Source: a virus
Length of the DNA stretch: 63,745 bases
Virus record (IMG/VR): IMGVR_UViG_3300046723_000060
Coordinates: 1-63,745 of that record
Strand: one strand, 5' to 3'
Position numbers and translations under genes: made by a program. Each line of letters starts with the position of its first letter. Position 1 is the first letter of the stretch. Below are positions 16,096 through 55,631 of this stretch, in pieces. Under the pieces are notes generated by a model. It saw nothing but the letters and a program-made list of their open reading frames with translations. It did no database searches and was not told where the DNA came from.

Positions 16096-17041
16096 GCCAT
16101 CCCCTACGACGGACCTCTTCCATAATTAGGCTGACGTCGTGCCGAGTGTATACCATAGGCATATAAGTTTCACTCTCTAAAATTGTAGGGGAGGCCCATG
16201 CGGAGGCCATTTTCTCTGAAAATGAGAGGTACATGCTCGAGCTGATCGAATTTCCCTCGGGCCGCCACCATATTCCTGTTGGTGTGCCCCGCAATGCAGA
16301 AATGATGCCCACTCCGGCCTGGTAGCTAATCACAAACTTAGCCCTGTCAGTGATGGCCCAGAGTTCACCTAGATTGGTCCGACCAATAACACTAGTCCAC
16401 CAGTCCTGACCTTTGAGCAAAGGTTCTAAGATTCCAGTGAAGTAGGCTAGGTCGTAGGAAGCGCCGACAACGAGGATGTGTAAGCCAAATTCATCATGGA
16501 CGCGCTTACCCAGTTCTACCCATTCTTGCGGAGTCCAGATAGGACCGCGGTTATGGCCTTCAACTGTATTGCCAGCGAGAGGGCCGGGATAGAATACGGC
16601 GTAGTCGCCAATCTTCTGGTGTACGTCAGCAGCATGGATACGTTCGATAGTTTCAATATGGAAATCCCTAAAGATGTTCCAGTTGATCTGGTATTGCGGT
16701 AGCCAGTTCTCTAAACGGATACCCTTTTCTAGCGGAGCATTAGGGATGAGTACGCAGTATTTCTCACCGTCGAATTCGTACATGCCGTCTTCAACGTAGT
16801 TGTACGTTCCGTCGGGATGAACGCGAGGACCATAGGCTTGGATAGAGAAAGGCTTCATATCCACTGAGTTTACGAAACGGAATCGTCTGACAAAGTCGAG
16901 AGCGCGGGAGTCAACTTTGTCCTTGGAGCCAACTAAAGAGACGTCGATTACGCCACCGGAATCTAACTTGTCACGGATAGCTTGAATCTTAGTTAACGCC
17001 CAGACTGAGTCGCCAATTCCTGTAGGTAACAAGAACTTCAC
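16055..17041 (-). CDS. GT-B glycosyltransferase, family-9 (heptosyltransferase) type
   Basis: A 328-residue protein started by GTG (GTGA overlap). It opens MKFLLPTGIGDSVWALTKI, the Rossmann start (G-x-GD) of GT9 ADP-heptose transferases, and its C-terminal half has a second Rossmann-like unit (LHILVVGASYDLAYF) followed by LGELWAITDRAKFVISYQAGVGIISALRGTP, corresponding to the D-[T/S]-G-x-x-H-x-A region. The usual DSGxxH is altered to SYQAGV, so donor or activity may differ. It is the last enzyme of the sugar cassette, just upstream of the secreted fibre. Likely role: glycosylating virion protein or host envelope polysaccharide. Confidence 0.7.
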   Translation of the reverse strand: MKFLLPTGIGDSVWALTKIQAIRDKLDSGGVIDVSLVGSKDKVDSRALDFVRRFRFVNSVDMKPFSIQAYGPRVHPDGTYNYVEDGMYEFDGEKYCVLIPNAPLEKGIRLENWLPQYQINWNIFRDFHIETIERIHAADVHQKIGDYAVFYPGPLAGNTVEGHNRGPIWTPQEWVELGKRVHDEFGLHILVVGASYDLAYFTGILEPLLKGQDWWTSVIGRTNLGELWAITDRAKFVISYQAGVGIISALRGTPTGIWWRPEGNSISSSMYLSFSEKMASAWASPTILESETYMPMVYTRHDVSLIMEEVRRRGWHETPIHSTAVPAG

Positions 17042-36425: not shown

Positions 36426-36454
36426 TTGACATACTTTTAGTGTAATCCTATAGT
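36426..36454 (+). promoter_or_regulatory. Main right-arm promoter
   Basis: TTGACA at 36426-36431, a 17-base spacer, TATAGT at 36449-36454. This is near consensus for sigma70. Start of transcription is expected near 36461, giving a 15-base leader containing GGAGGCAAC (36463-36471) just before the first gene. It is expected to drive the early accessory operon. Confidence 0.85.
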
Positions 36455-37880: not shown

Positions 37881-38105
37881 ATGCGAATCTCAAGAGAAGT
37901 AGCGTTAACTTGTAAGCATTGCGGCGATGTGCTCACCTATGACCAAGGTGTGCTCGTAGATACTACAGGAGGCGACGTATGCGGCATCGCTAGCGTTAAT
38001 GGACCAGGAACAAACAATGATAATCGACCACATGAACTAACAGTAGAAACGGCAATGCTCACAGTTATTTACAATCAGATAAGGGGGAAGTTATGCGTCA
38101 AGTAA
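37881..38105 (+). CDS. 74-residue protein sharing its N-terminus with the next gene
   Basis: Starts MRISREVALTCKHCGDVLTYD (one CxxC) and ends YNQIRGKLCVK. The stretch ISREVALT also opens the downstream gene at 38093, and the underlying DNA GAAGTAGCGTTAAC is identical in both. The sequence otherwise differs, suggesting a duplicated start segment grafted on distinct bodies. Function unknown. Confidence 0.6.
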   Translation: MRISREVALTCKHCGDVLTYDQGVLVDTTGGDVCGIASVNGPGTNNDNRPHELTVETAMLTVIYNQIRGKLCVK

Positions 38106-38272
38106 TCTCTCGTGAAGTAGCGTTAACCGAGGCGTACCTCGATCATCAGGCACAGCTATCGCAGCCGTCATTTCCGCGAGTACAGGCGAGCGTATGGCCG
38201 GATGTGGTGGGAACTGTGCTGGGGATCGTGGGCTTTGTGATGCTGGTAGTGGAGTATTGGAGGGCGTGGTGA
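38093..38272 (+). CDS. 59-residue single-pass membrane protein
   Basis: ATG start at 38093 after AAGGGGGAAG. The product MRQVISREVALTEAYLDHQ has a soluble N-terminus and a C-terminal transmembrane segment (VVGTVLGIVGFVMLVVEYW) ending RAW. It overlaps 13 bases with the upstream gene, with which it shares ISREVALT, and four bases (GTGA) with the next. Likely an inner-membrane peptide. Confidence 0.65.
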   Translation: MRQVISREVALTEAYLDHQAQLSQPSFPRVQASVWPDVVGTVLGIVGFVMLVVEYWRAW

Positions 38273-38520
38273 GTATTCATATGAAAAGGAAAGTTCAAGT
38301 AGACGGACTAACCCTTCCATTGTCGCGCTCGATTCTAGGATGGGTAGCGATCTTCGGCAAGGATTACATCGTTTATTTTAAGCAGAATAGCAGCGGCAAA
38401 TGGATTGTCCGCAGACCGAGAGCGCTTGAGCCTATCGCTGTAACCGATACCTTGGATACTGCGCTAGTAATTGCTAATCGACATTGGAAAGAAGTGAGAG
38501 CACCGGAGGAACGCACATGA
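38269..38520 (+). CDS. 83-residue hypothetical protein
   Basis: GTG start by the GTGA overlap (an ATG four codons in is an alternative). Product VSIHMKRKVQVDGLTLPL, WVAIFGKDYIVYFKQNSSGKW, then TDTLDTALVIANRHWKEV. It looks like a small beta-sheet domain plus helix, with no known family. Confidence 0.6.
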   Translation: MSIHMKRKVQVDGLTLPLSRSILGWVAIFGKDYIVYFKQNSSGKWIVRRPRALEPIAVTDTLDTALVIANRHWKEVRAPEERT

Positions 38521-39089
38521 ACACTAAACTAGTCTCAGAATCACTCAAGGGAATTGTCATGGCTATCGGCCTAGTACTGCTGCTTTTCAGCATGGCTATA
38601 CTGGCACCGGAGAGCCGGGGAGACACCATTAAAGTGTCTACGATTGCCTCAGAACTAGACACTGAAAGTGTGCTACCGCTGGCTGGGGGTGTTGACGTAC
38701 AGCTTGCTGGTAACCTCATACAAGCGCAGAACGCGGCATGGGGTAAACAATGGTTTGAGGGGAGTCTGGAACTGTCTATAGAGAGCGTGCTTAAGGCTAT
38801 CGGACTCTATGTCTGGGATGGTGGGCCCACTGAGATTACCAAAGATCAGACTGCGTTTCAGGTTGTGTGGATACAGAGCCACATTGCCATTGATCCGAGG
38901 CTTACTGTTGAGTTTGATACGACGGCTATCAACTTTGGGGAGGTACCAGTATCTACACCTGAGCCTATGACGTTCGTACTAGTGCTGATGGGCCTGGTAT
39001 GGCTGGGTGTAGTGAGGTGGAGTAATAGGCAGAGTATGGCGGATCGCATCGTGGAGCGCGTACGTGCTTATAAGGGGATGCAGCCATGA
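38517..39089 (+). CDS. Putative secreted PEP-CTERM-like surface protein
   Basis: A 190-residue protein (ATG with ATGA overlap). The N-terminus has a hydrophobic signal or anchor (GIVMAIGLVLLLFSMAILA). The mature part has beta-like strands. Near the C-terminus is STPEPMTFVLVLMGLVWLGVVRW, a Pro-Glu-Pro followed by one TM segment and a basic residue, the layout of PEP-CTERM sorting signals handled by exosortases. It differs from the norm in having about 23 further residues (NRQSMADRIVERVRAYKG...). If real, it would be put onto the host surface or matrix during infection. No phage precedent is known to me. Confidence 0.6.
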   Translation: MNTKLVSESLKGIVMAIGLVLLLFSMAILAPESRGDTIKVSTIASELDTESVLPLAGGVDVQLAGNLIQAQNAAWGKQWFEGSLELSIESVLKAIGLYVWDGGPTEITKDQTAFQVVWIQSHIAIDPRLTVEFDTTAINFGEVPVSTPEPMTFVLVLMGLVWLGVVRWSNRQSMADRIVERVRAYKGMQP

Positions 39090-42754: not shown

Positions 42755-42909
42755 GCTACGATCCGAAATGCAGAGACTTAGCAGAGTATTTTCTGGCTGA
42801 TGAAGAACATTCGCAAGAAGAAGTCACATGGTTAGCGCAAGAGATACAGGATTCAATCGAACGTTGGTTTGAGCCGCGAGAATCAAGACCAAAAGATGTA
42901 ACGCCATGA
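42751..42909 (+). CDS. 52-residue MSYDPKC paralogue
   Basis: ATGA overlap with the previous gene. Product MSYDPKCRDLAEYFLADEE, then EEVTWLAQEIQDSIERWFEP. It is a paralogue of the N-terminal part of the gene at 41964 but lacks its zinc ribbon. Helical, unknown role. Confidence 0.65.
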   Translation: MSYDPKCRDLAEYFLADEEHSQEEVTWLAQEIQDSIERWFEPRESRPKDVTP

Positions 42910-42956
42910 GCAGCGCTGGTGGTGAAGCAGTATCTGAAGTGGAAACGGAAAGAAAT

Positions 42957-43712
42957 ATGATTTACGTAGCTTTTGGCGGGGGCATCAACTCAACAGCTAT
43001 GTTAGTAGGAATGTTACAGCGCGGATTTTGGCAACGTGCAATTTGGCCTAAATGGGTTGTTTTTGCCGATACAGGAGGAGAGAAACCGGAAACATATCGT
43101 CATGTGGATTTGGTAGAACAATGGCTTAAAGATACTGGAGATTTGGAACTCCATCGAGTTAAGAAGGATTCCATGTATGAAAGTCTGGAAGATGAGTGCT
43201 TGCGAAATAATACTCTCCCCGCGCTCGCATTCGGATGGCGATCTTGCTCTGACAAGTGGAAACAGGCTCCGCAGCAGAAGTTTATGAATCACGACGAACA
43301 GGCGAAGGAGATTTGGGCGTCTGGCGGCAAGATTATAAAGGCTATCGGCTTTGGCGTAGATGAGCTACATAGAGCCAAGCCTTATGAAGACGAAAAGTAC
43401 CGCAACTGGTATCCACTAATTGACTGGAAATGGAACCGAAACGATTGCATCGAAGCAATCAAGCGAGCAGGACTGCCAGTTCCACCTAAAAGTAGCTGTT
43501 TCTATTGTCCCGCTATGCGGAAGTCAGAGATTGTACAACTCTCGAAAGATAACCCCGCACTCTACGCTCGCGCTCTAGCGATGGAAGAAAACGCAACAGC
43601 GGCGCATACGATCAAGGGATTAGGCAGGTCATTTTCGTGGAAGGAATTAGTTGGGCCGGAAGTGATCGAACAAGTTTGCATGTGTTTTGATGGAGAGTGC
43701 AGCAGTATCTGA
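42957..43712 (+). CDS. PAPS-reductase/ATP-pyrophosphatase-like enzyme
   Basis: A 251-residue protein of the PAPS reductase / DndC-like adenine nucleotide alpha-hydrolase superfamily. It starts MIYVAFGGGINSTAMLVGML, a variant of the S-G-G-x-D-S PP-loop (GGGINST), followed by VVFADTGGEKPETYRHVDLVEQW. Near the C-terminus PPKSSCFYCPAMRKSEI resembles the C-x-x-C-P region seen in phage and DndC-type members. Reactions in this class include sulfur transfer and base thiolation. A longer start at 42906 reads through a relic of the 42409 gene tail, so I prefer 42957. Confidence 0.75.
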   Translation: MIYVAFGGGINSTAMLVGMLQRGFWQRAIWPKWVVFADTGGEKPETYRHVDLVEQWLKDTGDLELHRVKKDSMYESLEDECLRNNTLPALAFGWRSCSDKWKQAPQQKFMNHDEQAKEIWASGGKIIKAIGFGVDELHRAKPYEDEKYRNWYPLIDWKWNRNDCIEAIKRAGLPVPPKSSCFYCPAMRKSEIVQLSKDNPALYARALAMEENATAAHTIKGLGRSFSWKELVGPEVIEQVCMCFDGECSSI

Positions 43713-51679: not shown

Positions 51680-52036
51680 ATGCCACAAGAACTAAACAAC
51701 AAGGATCTCCGTACCGTAGGCATCATCCTAGCCATAGGAATCCTCATCATAATCTTCTGTCTCTTCTGGGCTGCTAGGACTATTAGTGCTGAGGAGAAAG
51801 CCCACGAGTATAAGCTCACTGAAGTACAACAGTTGAAGCTCAAGGTAACTCAGCAGGAAGCTCAGTTGCTGCAAGCTCAACTCCAGAACATCCAGCGACA
51901 GTTCCAGGATAAGGTAAGCCAACTGATGCAGGAAGCTCAGAAGGTGAAGCTCGAGAACTCGTGGCCACCTGAGACAGCATTCAATCCTGATACCTTACAG
52001 TTCTCAGCACCGCCAGCTAAGGAGGAGAAGAAGTGA
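51680..52036 (+). CDS. Membrane-anchored coiled-coil protein, spanin-like
   Basis: A 118-residue protein with one N-terminal transmembrane segment (VGIILAIGILIIIFCLFWAA), then a long Gln/Lys-rich coiled coil (EYKLTEVQQLKLKVTQQEAQLLQAQLQNIQRQFQ) and a Pro-rich tail. This is the shape of an inner-membrane spanin (Rz-like) or another periplasmic spanning protein. It starts the operon that later encodes a lipoprotein (52558) and a DUF5675-like enzyme, so a role in lysis is reasonable but unproven. Confidence 0.6.
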   Translation: MPQELNNKDLRTVGIILAIGILIIIFCLFWAARTISAEEKAHEYKLTEVQQLKLKVTQQEAQLLQAQLQNIQRQFQDKVSQLMQEAQKVKLENSWPPETAFNPDTLQFSAPPAKEEKK

Positions 52037-52245: not shown

Positions 52246-52561
52246 GAAACTCTGGGGATGGGAAGACATCATCTGCAACGATATCTACTGCATGAAGATG
52301 TTGCACCTCAAGCTCGGGTACCAGTCCTCACTCCACATGCACCCGATAAAGGATGAAACATTCTTGGTGGTTGACGGATGTTGCGATCTCGAAGTTGACG
52401 GCTCTATCAGGCGTATGGTTCCAACCAGTAGCCATCACCTGATGCCAGGAACACCTCACCGATTCTGGGCAGTAAACGGGCCATGCACGATCGTAGAGTG
52501 TAGTACTCCGCACTCGGACGATGATGTAGTGAGATTAGAAGAGTCAAAGGAGATTAAATGA
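52235..52561 (+). CDS. Cupin-fold protein
   Basis: GTG start (11-base overlap), 108 residues. It contains VEKLWGWEDIICND, LKLGYQSSLHMHPIKDETFLVVDGCCDLEVDG, HHLMPGTPHRFWAVNGPCTIVECSTPH. The H-x-H...E and G...P-x-x-P-H-x-x motifs are the two cupin boxes of type II mannose-6-phosphate isomerase-like proteins, with likely metal ligands His, His, Glu, His. It may bind or isomerise a sugar, or act in polysaccharide modification. Unusual between lysis-type genes. Confidence 0.8.
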   Translation: MRVEKLWGWEDIICNDIYCMKMLHLKLGYQSSLHMHPIKDETFLVVDGCCDLEVDGSIRRMVPTSSHHLMPGTPHRFWAVNGPCTIVECSTPHSDDDVVRLEESKEIK

Positions 52562-52935
52562 AACGACTTATCCCGGCCCTAGTTGTAGCAGCAGTCGTAC
52601 TCTCAGGCTGTAGTCCACTTGAACGTCAAGCCTATAACACGGTAGTCGCAGCCAAGGCTTTCCTCGATAAAGAGAAATCACAGCACCCGGAGTGTGCCAC
52701 AGTTCCCAACAGTACGATCTGCGACGATCTCACCAAGGCTACTGGAGCCAAGGATGCGCTCATCGACGCTATAACCGTCTACTGCTCAGGCCCAGACTTC
52801 AACGCTAGCGGTGCTTGTAACGCTCCCGACCTCCACACCGCTGCCGGCGTCAACGCTGAAGCCAAGTTACGAGCTGCTATAACGAACTACAATCAGATTG
52901 CAACGGATCTTAAAACTGCGACAGGGGGACACTAA
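52558..52935 (+). CDS. Putative lipoprotein
   Basis: A 125-residue protein with a type II signal peptide (MKRLIPALVVAAVVLSGCS; lipobox LSGC). The mature part has four more cysteines and helical stretches (RQAYNTVVAAKAFLDKEKSQ, AKLRAAITNYNQIATDL). ATGA overlap with the cupin gene. An outer-membrane spanin is conceivable, but it is bigger than usual and Pro-poor; it may also be a superinfection-exclusion lipoprotein. Confidence 0.7.
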   Translation: MKRLIPALVVAAVVLSGCSPLERQAYNTVVAAKAFLDKEKSQHPECATVPNSTICDDLTKATGAKDALIDAITVYCSGPDFNASGACNAPDLHTAAGVNAEAKLRAAITNYNQIATDLKTATGGH

Positions 52936-55388: not shown

Positions 55389-55631
55389 TTAGAACCATCC
55401 ACCAAACGCATAGTTCGAGAATATCACCACGCAGATTAGTACCGCGACCCAGAAGCATACGCTGGCCCATGGCTCACCTACGCCAAGCGCTGGCAGTACG
55501 AGTTTCATAATCTTGAACAGGATGGCTACCACCACAACGGTGACTAGGAATCCAATGAAGGCCCATATAACTCCTTCGTGTCCGAAGAAGCCTATACGGT
55601 GCTGCAATGCAAGTAAGGTATACATATTCAC
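55389..55631 (-). CDS. Two-helix membrane protein, holin-like
   Basis: GTG start (GTGA overlap). The 80-residue product has two strong hydrophobic segments (VIWAFIGFLVTVVVVAILF and ASVCFWVAVLICVVIFSNYAF) separated by a short basic/neutral loop, both termini short. That is the class II holin shape. It sits between two other small membrane proteins, all in one lysis-like cluster. Confidence 0.65.
   Translation of the reverse strand: MNMYTLLALQHRIGFFGHEGVIWAFIGFLVTVVVVAILFKIMKLVLPALGVGEPWASVCFWVAVLICVVIFSNYAFGGWF

Follow-up and report, generated by a model that had tools for sequence, protein, structure and literature searches.

The gene at positions 38,517 to 39,089 of the window (the whole analysed stretch of 63,745 nucleotides, an IMG/VR record of a soil virus that encodes the terminase, the portal, and the major head protein of a tailed phage) raises the question of whether a phage can encode a protein addressed to the PEP-CTERM/exosortase sorting route of its host. 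The virion genes of the window run leftward, and a block of small genes, from about 36.4 to 54.4 kb, runs rightward. The open reading frame (start ATG 38517, stop 39087-39089) lies within this block and has an ATGA overlap with its upstream and downstream neighbours alike (Table 1). With these features and its ribosome-binding site it is a real gene. It is under purifying selection, its mature part differing from that of the homolog in record G090 with dN 0.194 and dS 1.854. The initial annotation had placed it in an early phage operon. The gene does lie in a rightward block that is divergent from the virion genes and stands behind a near-consensus sigma-70-like site; early expression of the block, this gene included, is suggested by the layout. 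Two such sites are found in the window against a shuffle mean of 4.6, and the one before the first rightward gene is a consensus match only. Neither Rfam matches nor tRNA genes were found in the window.

Table 1. Features at and around the PEP-CTERM-like gene (window positions)
Feature	Position	Strand	Remark
Sigma-70-like site TTGACA-17-TATAGT, 11/12	36426..36454	+	before first rightward gene
Single-TM ORF, 59 aa, candidate partner	38093..38272	+	homolog/fusion in relatives
Small ORF between 59-aa ORF and PEP gene	38281..38520	+	ATGA overlap with PEP gene start
Ribosome-binding site GGAGG	38505..38509	+	sequence
PEP-CTERM-like protein gene (family A), 190 aa	38517..39089	+	translationally coupled to both neighbours
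N-terminal hydrophobic segment, residues 13-30	38553..38606	+	hydropathy
Soluble domain, residues 36-145, ~110 residues	38622..38951	+	predicted periplasmic/surface, without recognised family
STPEP motif, residues 146-150	38952..38966	+	sequence, profile match
C-terminal TM segment, residues 151-166	38967..39014	+	hydropathy
Basic tail, residues 167-190	39015..39086	+	longer than typical PEP-CTERM

For the N-terminal signal that had been claimed for the protein, the hydrophobic segment is a candidate, probably a Sec signal, but in the window copy it is followed by a weak cleavage site (S-R-G↓D by eye). Judged in the same way, the sites are clean in two relatives (DARA↓DS in G001 and VAQA↓DS in G092). 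Between the signal and PEP there is no internal TM segment (highest 15-residue hydropathy 1.27), and PEP itself occupies residues 148-150 of 190, close to the C-terminus. The described arrangement of STPEP, one TM segment, and a tail of about 23 residues is found as claimed: the TM segment (16 residues, mostly hydrophobic) directly follows PEP and extends up to R167, the first basic residue, after which 23 residues follow. The charges of the tail are R167, R171, and then scattered K/R, giving 6 basic and 2 acidic residues after PEP, and the RRR cluster found in most bacterial PEP-CTERM examples is absent. No Pfam, NCBIfam, or PHROG family is reported above cut-off for this protein. The sole PDB sequence match (arginase, E 1.1) was taken as chance, and AlphaFold models from 2 and 4 sequences are unusable (mean pLDDT 43.0 and 42.6, respectively).

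As for the sorting signal, the TIGR02595 profile suggested as a check reports 18.2 bits for the window protein, above its cut-off of 16, when the record is searched in six frames, and none of 14 control genomes matches in the frame search. In the whole-protein hmmscan, however, the same profile gives 14.5 bits, below the cut-off; PF07589 also gives 14.5 bits, against a cut-off of 20.7. By these scores the window protein alone is borderline, and whole-protein cut-offs would leave it unlabelled. Frame-search values in the sister phages are 18.1 for G001, 18.8 for G090, 16.5 for G092, and 17.5 for G095, and every homolog and analog scanned as a whole protein is below the curated cut-offs. NF038129 family PEP-CTERM protein is the best NCBIfam match of the window protein (15 bits), G001 (17.1), and G090 (19.4), but it covers the C-terminal part, stays far below its 65-bit cut-off, and leaves the rest of the domain without a match. 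The G090 protein has 11 NCBIfam matches at E<=1; all belong to families that have a sorting domain or depend on exosortase, and each is below cut-off. An order-specific HMM, based on 22 PEP-CTERM ends of one Acidobacteriota order and therefore narrow (the true host may belong to another group), gives the window protein 1.1 bits, a score reached by 6 of 5,000 shuffles. Among 11,641 six-frame frames of 24 phage records (1.38 Mb) it ranks G001 1st, G108 2nd, the window protein 172nd, and G090 1,445th. A consensus PEP-CTERM peptide compared with phages had no match, which is uninformative because the peptide is short.

The window protein being borderline alone, the case for its PEP-CTERM signal is made because its relatives carry it. 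A terminase scan yielded 58 loci, and among the 47 records searched (46 of those loci and the phage Tunturi_1) one, G001 (IMGVR_UViG_3300050821_007542; terminase 84% and head protein 93% identical to those of the window), has both a homolog of the protein and a TIGR02595 score above cut-off. G010, with 14.5 bits, was attributed to chance, as the L064 frames printed have no PE[PS] before a TM segment there. A head-protein scan yielded 35 loci, which belong to a clade whose phages have genomes near 64 kb. In the second set of 35 records (34 head-protein loci and one from an early-gene scan) homologs are found in G001, G090, and G092, and TIGR02595 is over cut-off in these and in G095; a score of 12.1 bits in a 29-aa frame of G115 was rejected. 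The closest homolog is the G090 protein, 68% identical over 162 aa; its C-terminus, TPEPAVWAMVLVGLLGLLVIRKEARS, is canonical for PEP-CTERM. In the G092 protein a clean signal peptide (by eye) is combined with VPES. PEP or PES precedes the TM segment in 4 of 4 family members. In the comparison with G001, 4 of 5 residues of STPEP are unchanged (TPEP is retained), against 3 of 14 in the TM segment. The window-type PEP genes lie 5-8 kb upstream of the terminase gene and are divergent from it. A single-protein scan of viral contigs and phages returned no homologs, nor did searches of plasmids or, with profile A1, of genome contigs. On viral contigs, profile A1 recovers G001 only, and profile A3, an alignment of the four phage homologs, recovers only the three records already known.

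Profile A3, made solely of phage sequences, was also run on 200 genomes from the class to which G047 belongs. It matches 15 of them at 18 places (E<=0.01), mostly over the C-terminal third, and 9 of the 10 loci read are C-termini of bacterial proteins with PEP, a TM segment, and basic residues; the remaining locus (L322) is no PEP-CTERM end.

The length of the tail had been named as the main doubt, and for the window's own copy it remains so, being a real anomaly. From PEP to the end there are 43 residues in the window protein, 40 in G001, 36 in G092, 34 in G108, 31 in G095, and 25 in G090, compared with 22-35 in 22 bacterial examples. The domain thus lies at the extreme C-terminus in G090, G095, and G108, but not in the window protein. 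According to Haft 2006 (PMC1569441), in the part consulted, 87% of PEP-CTERM proteins extend <10 residues beyond the domain, and long tails may be non-functional. The motif MADR..R...Y is common to the tails of the window and G001 proteins (8 of 22 residues identical) and absent in G090. One bacterial protein from the A3 search (L320), PEP-CTERM by sequence, has a tail about as long as that of the window protein, so a tail of this length does occur in a bacterial protein, whether or not that protein is processed.

PEP-type proteins are present in 6 of the 24 records, namely the window, G001, G090, G092, G095, and G108. The G095 protein is unrelated to the window family; its signal peptide is clean, and it carries STPEPSEIGLVLAGLGLLAILYKLKGDTNGLTI (TPEP and TM). 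A motif scan of the 24 records, including the window, added a third unrelated secreted-type protein in G108, which ends in TPEPGTLAVSAIALALFVLVYYHSTRRESYTCRCK (again TPEP and TM). TIGR02595 does not report the G108 protein at E<=0.05, and it has no NCBIfam match at E<=1; its support consists of motif, layout, and 16.1 bits for PF07589, below the cut-off of 20.7. Against the 200 genomes it has three weak matches, none with PEP and TM in the part printed. Because the G095 and G108 genes are placed elsewhere than the window-type genes, toward the other end of the rightward-type block, the tag appears to have been acquired more than once in these phages. In G108 (C1:10251-11682) the PEP-type gene stands between two ORFs with signal-like hydrophobic stretches near their starts, and the three may form a secretion cluster.

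The layout of N-terminal hydrophobic segment, soluble part, and C-terminal TM segment occurs in 42 frames of the 24 records. PE[PS] directly precedes the TM segment in 6 of these 42, a number reached by 0 of 10,000 shuffles. When the window family is reduced to one representative, the count is 3 of 39, which 42 of 10,000 shuffles reach. In our judgement the true fraction exceeds 6/42, since, of the remaining 36, many do not look like coding frames.

Upstream of the gene, the 59-aa ORF has a homolog before the G092 PEP gene (E 1.3e-9) and also aligns with the N-terminal end of the PEP protein in G090 (E 4.9e-5), the two forming one ORF there. This fusion, together with the neighbourhood, suggests that its product and the PEP protein work together. 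In G122, which is without a PEP protein, the match is a truncated ORF of 30 aa. A shared start, M..[ST]REV-ALT, is seen in the ORFs at 37881-38105 and 38093-38272 of the window, at 16815 in G090, and at the start of the G001 PEP gene, a pattern that duplication of gene starts, or their exchange by recombination, could leave.

The closest isolated phages are Tunturi_1 and Tunturi_2 of Tunturiibacter, whose genomes are similar in size to that of the window phage and whose terminase shares 33% identity across 95% of the query. They are reported, in the part of the source consulted, to infect an Acidobacteriota strain (PMC11924767). Tunturi_1 has no homolog of the window protein and no TIGR02595 match. 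Among 80 genome loci, the best terminase match (L074, 44%) is on a 4.5-kb contig of an archaeal MAG (Methanoregulaceae), perhaps a misbinned phage contig, and the next two, at 34%, are in Acidobacteria MAGs. The host is likely to be an acidobacterium. No exosortase (PF09721) was found in the window phage or G001. The initial annotation had proposed looking for one in the host. In likely host groups, PF09721 exceeds its cut-off in 2 of the 3 Acidobacteriota MAGs that have a related terminase (in one only just), the third (G049) having no match, and in 23 of 40 genomes from the order to which G047 belongs. TIGR02595 matches 25 of the same 40 genomes, with up to 19 matches per genome. Since a tyrosine integrase is absent from all 15 phage records searched, lysogenic conversion is unlikely for these phages; other routes of integration remain.

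With homologs, two unrelated phage proteins, and the reciprocal search behind it, the claim of an exosortase-signal-like C-terminus holds, and we consider it fairly probable that the window protein is a phage-encoded cargo for the host PEP-CTERM/exosortase route. The protein would be exported and its N-terminal signal cleaved; the host exosortase would then process the C-terminal signal, and the protein would reach the host surface, which its domain of about 110 residues would alter. As for the specific role, blocking the adsorption of competing phages, i.e., superinfection exclusion, is our preferred guess, though a doubtful one. That an apparently virulent Acidobacteriota phage lineage keeps acquiring secreted proteins and sends them through the host exosortase we regard as possible, a little short of an even chance. 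If so, proteins made by the virus would appear at the surface or in the matrix of newly infected cells, a viral hijack of C-terminal sorting. A topology with both termini cytoplasmic had been named as refuting the signal. This is misplaced, because the precursor model described in the Fig. 4 legend of Haft 2006 (PMC1569441), combined with our own reasoning, has both ends of a PEP-CTERM protein in the cytoplasm before processing.

Other readings explain parts of these data. The window copy could descend from a PEP-CTERM protein and yet no longer be processed, a simple bitopic protein of the inner membrane that acts via its conserved cytoplasmic tail. The tail motif kept with G001, a tail longer than in the bacterial examples, the possible non-functionality of long tails, and the weak cleavage site would all agree with this. 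However, TPEP is kept where the TM segment has diverged, the G090 end is short and canonical, and the tail of L320 is equally long, so we find this reading unlikely, if worth keeping in mind. A protein this small and phage-encoded might also be a decoy that occupies the exosortase and starves the host's own surface proteins, of which as many as the TIGR02595 matches counted per genome could be affected. A pure decoy, however, would not need a mature domain under purifying selection, and the tag sits on three unrelated domains; we therefore judge it improbable.

If PEP were a coincidence in an ordinary membrane protein with two anchors, the sub-threshold whole-protein scores and the weak order-specific HMM score would be explained. 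This reading fits poorly with the shuffle tests, the unrelated analogs in sister phages, and the 9 of 10 loci of the reciprocal search, which leaves chance resemblance very improbable. Hydrophobic segments at both ends of a soluble part are also what a single-protein spanin or another lysis protein could have, but the first 70 residues contain no Cys at all and so none for a lipobox, and the gene is far from the Rz-like protein at 51680-52036 and the lipoprotein at 52558-52935; this reading is scarcely credible. The Rz-like protein is a spanin candidate (E 0.0045) close to the lipoprotein, and the two likely mark a lysis region. Matching a superinfection-exclusion PHROG (E 4e-4), the lipoprotein was considered as Cor, but only its first 34 residues match and the assignment was not used.

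Regarding cargo for the exosortase, the window protein resembles the bacterial PEP-CTERM/exosortase (EpsH) system (TIGR02595, PF07589; Haft 2006, PMC1569441) in its probable signal, soluble domain without a family, PEP, TM segment, and basic residues. It differs in being phage-encoded, in its excessive tail, in scoring below the curated whole-protein cut-offs, and in being known from sequence alone. TIGR03118 proteins, which have a putative exosortase interaction domain, receive a passing mention among transferred genes in hot-spring viruses (PMC11003980); they belong to a different family and a different virus community. In the titles and abstract openings of the open-access literature searched, no analysis of phage-encoded exosortase cargo was found. 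What appears new is that a PEP-CTERM-like tag, known from bacteria, is present on several phage proteins. PEP-CTERM proteins have been associated, in the portion of the source consulted, with bacterial surface and matrix formation, e.g., floc formation (PMC9850573). If real, the phage tag would offer a tractable handle both on the surface role of exosortase cargo and on the ways in which soil phages alter the host envelope, and the six phage proteins are ready for localisation tests.

Among the other genes of the window, a phosphoadenosine phosphosulfate reductase-like gene (42906-43712; PHROG 424, E 6e-39) is part of the rightward block. A conserved small TM protein (55389-55631), 74-75% identical in G001 and G090, is encoded among the leftward genes of the window and by the divergent junction in those two records.
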